Shown here: one piece after another, positions 22,867-25,957 of the stretch
Numbering within the stretch: the first letter of the stretch is position 1
Layout of the letters: every line of letters starts with the position of its first letter
IMG/VR virus record: IMGVR_UViG_3300050020_000030
Span: 1-64,000 of that record
DNA length: 64,000 nucleotides
Reading direction: 5' to 3' (one strand)
From: a virus
The notes under the pieces: generated by a model
What the model was told of the DNA's origin: nothing
What the model saw: the letters and a program-made list of their open reading frames with translations, nothing else
Databases searched by the model: none
Position numbers and translations under genes: made by a program

Positions 22867-25034
22867 ATGGCCTATACTCCCGCAGTAAATACAGTTACCA
22901 GTGGTAACTTTCCTAACGCTTTGGCCGTTTACTATGAGCGTAAAGCAATTCCAAACCTTAAAGCAAGCACTCCGTTTCTGGGGGCAACAAAGCAGTGGCC
23001 TTTGCCGAGGCACTCCGGTAACGTGATTCAGTTCTTCTCCTATAACCTCTTGGGCGCGAATGTCTCTCAGACCACCGAGGGTTTCGTGGGTTCTCCTGTT
23101 CCCGAGAGCGCAGTCAAGATTCAGGCGACAATCGGTGAACTTGCTGCTTAACAGCTAACTGGCCGATATAAAATTCCGCTAAATCGGTGAACATCTGTGG
23201 TATAATGGTGTTATGCCAACAGAAAATACCGAGCTAACTCAAATGAAAGATCACACAAAAGCGTATATGGCCGGAGTCCTCGACGGAGACGGTCATCTAG
23301 GAATTCAGAAACACGGGCAGTATAGTCCTAGTATACAGGTTTGTGGTGAGTCTAAATCGCTTATGGAATGGATCGTCCTTAACTTTGGGGGATCAATCCG
23401 CAAAGAAAAAATCAAGAGCGGTAAAGACTTCTACAAATGGATACTCTACGGGAAGAATTCTCAAAAAGATTTCGTAGAAGGTATCACACCTTTTGTGTTC
23501 ATAAAAAGATCACAAGCAGAGATTCTCCAAGAGTTTCTTAATATCAATCGGAGTGACTACGATCCGGAAAAGAGAGAATCTTACTATCTAGCAATTAGGA
23601 AAGCTAGATCATTGAGCAGCGTAGAGACTGACATGCGGAACAAACTAGACAATAAACTGGCTTGCGCTTATGCGGCTGGTCTGGTTGATACAGACGGACA
23701 CATAAATTTATACACGGTTCCCTCGGGAAAGTCTAAAGGTAGCATACGAACAGGAATAGAAATCGTAAATATCTATAGACCTATTCTCGATGAGCTAGCA
23801 AGGCAGTTTGGGGGTCACGTAAGGAAAAGAACAGAAGACGGGTACAAGACTCGGTATCAGTGGTTCGTTACTGATATGAAATCCGAGGAAAAACTCCTTC
23901 TGGCGATGCTCCCTTATATGATTGTGAAGAGAGAAAAAGCAGAAAATCTTCTCAAGCACCTCCGAGAAAGACTTAGTTTGAAGATACAGCCCGAACTCAT
24001 AGGTGACTATGAGAGTGTCCCAGTGGGAACGCTGAAGACCTAAACACGTTTGCAATACGCTGATTACACCAATAGCTCTGACCTGTTCTTGGATACGGCG
24101 ATTGACGACAAGGGCGCACTTAGCTCTTTGGCCGAGGAAATGAACTATCGCCTCGCCCTCACCCTGAATCTGTTGGTCTCCACGGCTGCGGATTCTCTGA
24201 ATGGCATCGACGGTTCTGTGAATCAGCAGTTGGCAGTCGGTACCTATCTTACCGCGTCGAACCTGCGTACCATCGCTCAGCAGCTTGAGTCGGTGAACGT
24301 TCGTCCGTTCGAAGCCAACACCTACGCCGGGGTTATCAATCCTCTGGTTGTGCATGATATCTATAATGACGCCAGCTTCAACGGCCTCACGGATATCATG
24401 AAGCGCCAGTCCGATTCTTCGAAGAAGTTGTTCGAAGGTCTGGATCGTGACGCCCCTCTGGAGTTCGCGGGTATTAAGTTCAAGAGCACCACAACCGCAT
24501 CGGCTGTGACCATCTCTTCGAACATTTACTATCCCACGTACATCTTCGGTGACGATGCTCTTCTAAGTATCTTCCTCGGTCCTAATCCGGCTGACAAGAA
24601 CAAGAAGAACTACTCACTGAATATCCAGATGGCTCCCGAAGGCGGCTCGGTCTCCGACCCGGCTCGCTTGATTGGTGAACTTGCTGCTTAAGCAGCTAAT
24701 CGGCCAATCTAAAACTCAGCTATATCGGTGAACCTCTCCTAAAATTTTAGGAGACAATACCGAGGGAAGACTAGGGAAAGTACCTAAACCTAGAACCCGT
24801 AACGACTAATACGCTGGGCCTTCGAAAGAAGTGAAGATAGAGTCTGAGCTATACGGCGACGTATAGAGTGTCTCCGGGGTGATCCGGGGGTGGATTAAGT
24901 CCACGATGACCTGAAAAGGCATCTCCAAAACGCAACTGGGGTGGATTTCATATAACTGTAAGTTCGTGGTCACGCCTCCGCCCGGAGTAGTTATGAGGGC
25001 ACGCAAGCTCCTGAGCCAGACGTCTTCAAGCTAA
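22867..25034 (+). CDS. major capsid protein, three exons split by two group I introns
   Basis: Exons are 22867-23136, 24053-24676 and 24939-25034, giving 329 residues. Each junction falls between codons. Joined, they restore the conserved ATIG-QYADYTNSSD and RLIG-GWISYNCKF regions known from the HK97-fold, N4 gp56-like capsid family. Unspliced, the frame stops shortly after each 5' splice site (IGELAA and stop). Both 5' exons end in U, paired to G in the intron guide; both introns end in G. The third exon encodes the last 31 residues, ending QTSSS. Codon use is strongly biased as in other abundant virion genes. Pieces of residues 35-61 and 156-262 are copied in early genes 2332 and 5842. Splicing is predicted, not shown. 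Confidence 0.9.
23194..23223 (+). promoter_or_regulatory. P5 hairpin carrying promoter -10 and the endonuclease start codon
   Basis: TCTGTGGTATAA pairs with TTATGCC-ACAGA around a TGGTG loop, with one bulged A. The same bases contain an extended -10 (TGTGGTATAATG, TATAAT at 23201-23206) and the ATG at 23213. In full-length pre-mRNA the start codon is buried in the stem. A transcript starting near 23213 would lack the left arm and expose it. No good -35 is seen. Confidence 0.65.
23213..24043 (+). CDS. intron-encoded LAGLIDADG homing endonuclease
   Basis: 276 residues, monomeric two-motif type: YMAGVLDGDG at residues 18-27 and YAAGLVDTDG at 153-162. The aspartates D24 and about D159 are the metal-binding residues. 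Such enzymes cut intronless alleles at the intron insertion site and spread the intron by repair. The target should span the exon junction near capsid codons 86-96. The ORF lies wholly inside intron 1; its first codons form P4 and P5 strands, codons 138-143 form P7/P3, and codons 259-267 form P7'/P9. No Shine-Dalgarno sequence is positioned before the ATG, consistent with leaderless translation from the internal promoter. Confidence 0.9.
   Translation: MPTENTELTQMKDHTKAYMAGVLDGDGHLGIQKHGQYSPSIQVCGESKSLMEWIVLNFGGSIRKEKIKSGKDFYKWILYGKNSQKDFVEGITPFVFIKRSQAEILQEFLNINRSDYDPEKRESYYLAIRKARSLSSVETDMRNKLDNKLACAYAAGLVDTDGHINLYTVPSGKSKGSIRTGIEIVNIYRPILDELARQFGGHVRKRTEDGYKTRYQWFVTDMKSEEKLLLAMLPYMIVKREKAENLLKHLRERLSLKIQPELIGDYESVPVGTLKT
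24677..24938 (+). ncRNA. group I intron 2 of the capsid gene, compact and ORF-free
   Basis: 262 bases with a complete core. P1: exon GATTGGT (24670-24676) with GCCAATC (24703-24709), U-G at the splice site. P3: CTCAGC (24715-24720) with GCTGGG (24813-24818). P4: CGGT (24726-24729) with ACCG (24759-24762). P5: perfect CTCCTAAAA/TTTTAGGAG (24736-24753). P6: GGG/CCC (about 24764 and 24797). P7: GACT (24804-24807) with AGTC (24841-24844). P8: CTTC-GAAA-GAAG (24820-24831). P9: CTATAC/GTATAG (24849-24866). The last base is G 24938. Sequence near the 5' end (GAACTTGCTGCTTAA) and after P9 matches intron 1, so the two are siblings. Confidence 0.93.
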
Positions 25035-25204: not shown

Positions 25205-25957
25205 ATGTACGATATTTACGAATATACGAATCTAATTAATAACAAGAAGTATGTCGGGCAGAGTATAGATAAAGATACCCGGAGACGGCAGCACTTATAC
25301 GAGGCTAAAAGGGGTTCTACCTGTCCCTTTCATCGTGCCATAAGAAAATACGGAATAGATAACTTCTCTTTTAGAATTATTGAATCTGTAGATACTCAAA
25401 AAGGCGCTGACGATCAAGAAGACTTTTGGATAAACGAACTAGACACGCGAAGCCGGGATCGAGGATATAATCTCAGGGGTGGGGGGATAGCAGGTCTCTT
25501 AGCTGAAGAGAGTAAGCAAAAAATCAGTAATTCTCTTACTGAGTACTACTCCGATGAAAAGAACCGCGAAACTATTAGGGATTCCTTGAAGAATTACTAT
25601 GAGCAGAACCCGGATCGTGTAGAGAAGATACGGGAGGAGTCCAGAGAGAATATAAAGGAAAGAAAGAGAAATGACTTGGGTCAACTTCTTCCGTCTTCGG
25701 GTGTTCCCGTTCCCGAGAAGACTCCAGAGGAGAAAAAAGCTATTAATAAAAGAAAAAGCGAAATGATGCTTTCCAAGTCTCCCGAAGAAAAGGCTCGGAT
25801 CAGCAAGAAGTTAAGTGATGCCCAGAAAGCCAGATATGCTGCTATGACCCCGGAAGAAAAAGAAGCCTTTTGTAAAAGAAAACGAGAGATTTCAGTTGCA
25901 TATCACGCCAAAAAGAAATCAGGAATCCAATGCACAGTAGCCCAAGAAAATTCGTAA
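25205..25957 (+). CDS. free-standing GIY-YIG homing endonuclease
   Basis: 250 residues. DIYEYTNLINNKKYVGQS (residues 2-19) gives the GIY and YVG strands, followed by the catalytic RRRQHL arginine helix, a tyrosine and an NELDTRSRDRGYNLRGGG segment with the conserved glutamate nearby. The C-terminal half has repeated NUMOD3-like DNA-binding motifs (PEEKARISKKLSDAQKARY). It lies between genes just after the capsid gene and has its own promoter. It probably cuts a site in or beside the capsid gene of competing phages. Confidence 0.88.
   Translation: MYDIYEYTNLINNKKYVGQSIDKDTRRRQHLYEAKRGSTCPFHRAIRKYGIDNFSFRIIESVDTQKGADDQEDFWINELDTRSRDRGYNLRGGGIAGLLAEESKQKISNSLTEYYSDEKNRETIRDSLKNYYEQNPDRVEKIREESRENIKERKRNDLGQLLPSSGVPVPEKTPEEKKAINKRKSEMMLSKSPEEKARISKKLSDAQKARYAAMTPEEKEAFCKRKREISVAYHAKKKSGIQCTVAQENS

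Follow-up and report, generated by a model that had tools for sequence, protein, structure and literature searches.

A LAGLIDADG endonuclease frame threaded through the core of a group I intron that interrupts the major capsid gene of a phage

The capsid gene and its two introns

The window, that is the whole stretch of 64,000 nt analysed here, is part of a virus record of 88,639 nt and carries a major capsid gene in three exons on the plus strand, the strand of every feature of the window described below. Exon 1 (22867-23136, with the 3' end AUCGGU) and exon 2 (24053-24676) are separated by group I intron 1 (23137-24052), and exon 2 and exon 3 (24939-25034) by its ORF-less sibling, group I intron 2 (24677-24938; RF00028, 46.3 bits, E 7e-10). 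Joining the exons restores a protein of 331 amino acids that matches the PHROG major head protein and shares 36% identity with the protein annotated as major head protein in Tunturiibacter phage Tunturi_3. The relatives L010-L015 are intron-less at the site of intron 1 and so fix its boundaries, which, together with the spliced frame, shows that the earlier note on this DNA had placed both ends correctly. An in-frame TAA (23149-23151), seen in the sequence, lies in the path of ribosomes entering from exon 1. The GIY-YIG ORF at 25205-25957 is located outside intron 2, 3' of the capsid stop.

Introns 1 and 2 share 85% identity over their initial 61 nt (23137-23197 and 24677-24737) despite their different insertion sites, suggesting that these 5' ends are the product of gene conversion or of recent descent. 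The capsid gene is also an intron hotspot in L036 (record G008), L066, L125, L034 and L215, where it contains several group I introns at differing positions, some of them in tandem.

The Rfam search of the window at the gathering score returned no match, and both introns were revealed under the E-value setting. Intron 1 falls below the RF00028 gathering score (50 bits, which is a threshold of detection and not a biological trait) with a partial match of 18.6 bits that covers the part 23973-24013. Its relatives score 46-61 bits, and the low score of intron 1 is probably due to its interruption by two long loops.

The ribozyme core and the frame that runs through it

Judged by its nucleotides, intron 1 is a group I intron, with a P3-P8 and P4-P6 core and the P7 G-C pair that binds guanosine. 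P1 forms between the AUCGGU of the exon and the guide GGCCGAU of the intron (23162-23167), with a U.G at the 5' splice site, and this U.G and the last base of the intron, G24052, are those of group I splice sites. The core helices (P3, P4, P5, P6, P6a, P7, P8 and P9) were placed using intron 2 and ORF-less relatives. P3 (UUCCGC/GCGGAA, 23174-23179 with 23635-23640, the 3' strand being codons 141-143) and P7 (23624 and 23626-23629 with 23988-23992, A23625 being bulged) lie where they had been proposed before, with a single A.C in P7, and the joining segment J7/3 (23630-23634) is 5 nt long as in intron 2, so that the identical GACT-to-P3 spacing claimed for the two siblings also holds. Four further placements were absent from the earlier note: P4 (23184-23188 with 23228-23232, from core placement and family covariation), P6 (GCU/AGC, 23233-23235 with 23618-23620), P6a (23238-23242 with 23612-23616) and P8 (CAAACUAG/UUAGUUUG, 23641-23648 with 23973-23980, supported by pairing permutation). 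J8/7 (AAGAUAC) occupies 23981-23987 and P9 pairs 23996-24002 with 24007-24013; P7' and P9 are inside the C-terminal codons of the ORF, as had been noted.

In total 38 of the 39 proposed core pairs (P3, P4, P6, P6a, P7, P8 and P9) form, the exception being A23627.C23990 in P7. The guanosine-binding G-C pair is present in all 75 introns of the family described in the next section, and the A.C beside it, in place of the usual A-U, in eight of them, one of which (L036-74, also in a capsid gene) has no ORF. A Pro codon forcing the A.C was considered and rejected on the grounds of this ORF-less intron, by which the mismatch is tolerated rather than forced by the protein code.

The open frame 23213-24043 encodes a two-motif LAGLIDADG homing endonuclease (PF00961 and PF14528 above curated cut-offs) and passes through P6', P7, P3', P8, J8/7, P7' and P9 to end 9 nt before the 3' splice site, and these helices covary in relatives, so that the earlier observation of an endonuclease frame encoding core strands is upheld. 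It contains 67 of the 78 paired core nucleotides, or about 54 if translation starts at 23243. What had not been recognised is that the two LAGLIDADG halves sit in two separate loops with the core as linker between them. Loop L6 (23243-23611) codes for the first half (motif AYMAGVLDGDG, codons 17-27) and loop L8 (23651-23971) for the second (motif AYAAGLVDTDG; PF00961 at 155-233), while the strand P6a'-P6'-P7-J7/3-P3'-P8 5' (23612-23648) supplies codons 134-146 for the linker and the strand P8'-J8/7-P7'-P9 (23973-24013) supplies codons 254-267 for the tail, which belong to a disordered C-tail (KIQPELIGDYES).

AlphaFold, run on an alignment of 13 sequences, gave a pLDDT of 83.9, with values above 90 for most of residues 11-130 and helices and strands of the second half at residues 147-253. 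The order of the predicted elements is that of alpha-beta-beta-alpha-beta-beta-alpha repeats, and the acidic residues of a two-motif LAGLIDADG enzyme are present. Values below 50 were confined to residues 1-8, 136-143 and 258-276, which are the codons of P5', P4' and P6, of P6', P7 and P3', and of J8/7, P7' and P9 onward, respectively. The conflict of protein and RNA constraints over most of the core that the earlier note implied is not supported. The core is coded in three short stretches that are mostly of low confidence and non-folding, and the conflict is therefore milder than was thought: according to the model, ribozyme sequence falls for the most part on residues that do not have to fold, and the folded domains lie wholly in L6 and L8.

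The best fold and sequence matches were to single-chain I-CreI (3mxa; Foldseek E 1e-14) and monomerised I-MsoI (3fd2), with I-AniI and the bI3 maturase also among the fold matches. Some LAGLIDADG proteins are maturases, and the interleaving could then reflect co-evolution of an RNA with a protein that mainly aids the splicing of its own intron, a reading for which the bI3 and I-AniI matches and a P7 weakened by its A.C could be adduced. The acidic residues of both motifs are however retained in 12 of the 13 aligned relatives, and the ORF-less L036-74 has the identical A.C, and we consider a primarily maturase role quite improbable. We regard as far less probable still, to the point of near dismissal, that the ORF is a decaying pseudogene open by chance, in an intron that is a splicing relic. 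Reading through P7 does need only one frame of three, and that frame happens to contain no stop in the conserved core; against this, the 276 codons are open and identical in separate metagenome contigs, relatives at 28-47% identity retain the frame and both domains, L8 has a length divisible by three in 17 of the 19 two-domain introns and 42 of the 49 single-domain ones versus two of the seven others, and the capsid protein can be obtained only by removal of the intron.

A family of related introns and the origin of the pairing

Searching viral contigs with the protein yielded solely copies that are 100% identical, and divergent relatives were recovered through core DNA motifs and the records of motif matches. 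The resulting family, the size of which is conditioned on the core since its members were found by core motifs, comprises 75 cores, of which 49 have a single LAGLIDADG half (in L6), 19 have halves in both L6 and L8, and seven have none that is recognised. The scan of genome contigs found LAGLIDADG proteins at 22-36% identity and did not contain a copy of the core. Matches in Streptomyces phages were discarded as relatives, the single case inspected being a free-standing nuclease. Loop 6 lengths of 1157, 1160 and 1329 (L066+1671, L031-1225 and L032+4448) and of 163 (L033+7223) are artefacts of a misplaced P4; P3 is identical between neighbouring introns in the first three of these, and in L066+1671 the strands counted are letter-identical to those of its own intron despite the misplacement.

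All 19 two-domain introns come from contigs whose capsid gene matches that of the window or that of Tunturi_3, at no fewer than seven insertion positions. In each of them half 1 lies in loop 6 and half 2 in loop 8, with the strand P6'-P7-P3' coding for the inter-domain linker; the arms of P8 stand 300-414 coding nucleotides apart, and in nearly all the capsid frame is taken up again about 70 nt past J8/7. The linker contains SVTTET, SVETDM or IVETDT, residues coded by P7 and P3'. In 40 of the 49 single-domain introns the frame continues beyond P7', with the tail SVTTNT...KIESEL.GD.ES.

Other arrangements were also seen in the family. A further ORF apparently lies in loop L5 of L011, L012 (exon 1 intron) and L030 (P7 at 2043, minus strand), where one intron would appear from its sequence to carry coding sequence in L5 besides L6. 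In L089 (P7 at 4318, minus strand) L6 contains both LAGLIDADG halves, after which the frame goes on through P7; this is an alternative route to a two-domain protein. The single-domain read-through tails of L016 and L208 have stretches of CxxC type (CPKCKEYL in L016, for example) that are encoded in L8 or beyond P9 and possibly form a small zinc-binding tail.

Examination of the pairing against three kinds of controls excludes that the pairing of intron 1 arose by chance. None of 20,000 synonymous re-codings of the ORF reached the native 38 of 39 pairs (mean 24, maximum 35). Aligning homologues for covariation, the check proposed in the earlier note, gave two-sided changes in P3, P6 and P9 among the 19 two-domain introns, five of the six P3 pairs having two-sided changes and none one-sided ones. 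In the same introns 98.4% of cells were paired versus 27-41% with partners slid by 1-3 columns, 107 cells had changed on both sides versus 3-22, and the covariation score was 0.605 versus 0.05-0.11. When arms were swapped among the 19 relatives, P3, P4, P6, P6a, P8 and P9 paired worse in 5000 of 5000 permutations, a result to be read bearing in mind that the permutation does not remove relatedness, the sequences not being independent, and that P3 and P4/P6 pairing served to locate the elements and is hence conditioned, whereas pairing in P6a, P8 and P9 was not selected on. In these alignments, core codons are fixed at the nucleotide level: the codon of T139 is ACT in all 19 two-domain introns, though ACT makes up about 32% of Thr codons.

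Expression and evolution of the endonuclease

The starts of relatives align with Met11 at 23243, and most do not support the upstream ATG at 23213; by this alignment the endonuclease probably starts at ATG 23243. That the first codons supply P5' and P4', as had been claimed, is consequently correct in that the frame is open from 23213, but the strands P5' and P4' are probably leader and the N-terminal codons doubtful as coding sequence. The segment made of P4', the 5' strand of P6 (GCU) and the 5' strand of P6a (23228-23242) has in most relatives the ribosome-binding-site-like CGAGGAAA (equivalent to P4'/P6), and in most two-domain introns the conserved start follows it, 11-16 nt past the beginning of P4'. 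Upstream, in L5, is an extended -10 promoter-like site, TGGTATAAT (23198-23206), for which no -35 of good quality was seen in intron 1. By motif count, its motif TGnTATAAT occurs in 10 of the 19 two-domain introns versus 0.1 expected. The sequence TGGTATAATG occurs three times in the window (23198, 25102 and 28519) versus 0.09 expected, each time at or just before a nuclease ORF (LAGLIDADG, GIY-YIG and HNH), as if the selfish genes of the window shared a type of promoter.

Taking the results together, we consider it very probable that the major capsid gene of this phage contains, as intron 1, a mobile group I intron whose endonuclease frame is threaded through the ribozyme so that L6 codes for the first half, L8 for the second, the strand P6', P7, J7/3, P3' and P8 for a flexible linker, and J8/7, P7' and P9 for a floppy tail. 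In the full-length capsid transcript, the TAA 13 nt into the intron would halt host ribosomes, and the RNA would fold with L6 and L8 hanging off the core during splicing. The protein would probably be translated from RNA starting inside the intron at the L5 promoter-like site; such RNA, having neither P1 nor the 5' strands of P3 and P4, could not fold as a ribozyme and so would be translatable. The enzyme itself is likely, from its family and fold, to be a single-chain pseudo-dimer that cuts intron-less capsid alleles. The layout probably arose once, from a single LAGLIDADG frame in L6 that already read through P7-P9, as it does in 40 of the 49 single-domain relatives, the second half later becoming established in L8 in the same frame. 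In the domain tree all first halves form one clade (support 95/94), and the second halves require one or two changes, so that a single origin is not rejected.

ORF extension into the ribozyme core has been described as core creep (Edgell et al. 2011, PMC3073962), and intron 1 is a case of it insofar as its ORF contributes nucleotides to core helices. Nothing more may have happened than that an ordinary ORF ran into the core, the two domains being an accident of where the stop codon lies, and the read-through of P7' in single-domain relatives agrees with such a process. Loss of a stop codon accounts for a tail, though not for a second complete LAGLIDADG half in L8; that loop, 303-414 nt long, contains one half in each of the 19 introns, and the first halves are one clade. 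Stop positions vary among the single-domain relatives and 13 of the 19 two-domain ORFs end at one place; in the latter the core-coded linker is internal and not a dispensable end of the ORF, and AlphaFold leaves the C-tail disordered. Plain core creep is unlikely as the whole account, although it is the strongest of the alternatives considered here.

We put at slightly better than even the broader proposal that a natural single-chain LAGLIDADG enzyme has a ribozyme core for its genetic linker, the half in L6 and the half in L8 of one intron being fused in frame through P7/P3, and that a promoter inside the intron sets translated RNA apart from splicing RNA. If true, the core as linker would be a direct route from homodimeric to monomeric endonucleases. 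Both the overlap of ORF and core and the shift from homodimer to two-domain monomer are usually argued from single cases, while here one family, with 19 introns of the two-domain kind, 49 of the single-domain kind and a few that lack an ORF, is found in relatives of one capsid gene. The steps, namely a frame past P7, a second half in L8, a floppy linker and a core kept through covarying codons, lend themselves to comparison and to reconstruction in the laboratory. The system also offers natural linkers coded by P7/P3, and it is a clear test case for keeping translation and splicing of one RNA apart.

Single-chain I-CreI and monomerised I-MsoI have, like the enzyme of intron 1, two I-CreI-type halves in one chain; they are laboratory fusions, whereas in intron 1 the halves are joined naturally, by DNA that is the ribozyme core. 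I-AniI, I-OnuI and similar natural two-motif enzymes are pseudo-symmetric monomers with the same fold, and we know of no such ORF split between L6 and L8 around P7/P3. In the rRNA intron L1917 of Synechococcus sp. C9 an ORF runs through P6-P7-P3-P8-P9 (Haugen et al. 2007, PMC1995217), but with one LAGLIDADG motif, a presumed homodimer and no domain in L8, in contrast to the two domains and the capsid gene of intron 1. The examples of core creep, which include T4 td/I-TevI and S. lividus LSU, have listed overlaps of up to 81 nt (PMC3073962) and resemble intron 1 in that the endonuclease ORF supplies nucleotides to P6a, P7, P3, P8 or P9. They differ in that their ORF sits in a single loop and overlaps the core at one of its ends or at both, while in intron 1 two folded halves occupy two loops and the core is an internal linker. 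Our search of open-access papers turned up no account of a LAGLIDADG pair divided between two loops with the core between them. A frame that passes through the core was already known; its division into two domains with the catalytic core as the linker appears to be new.
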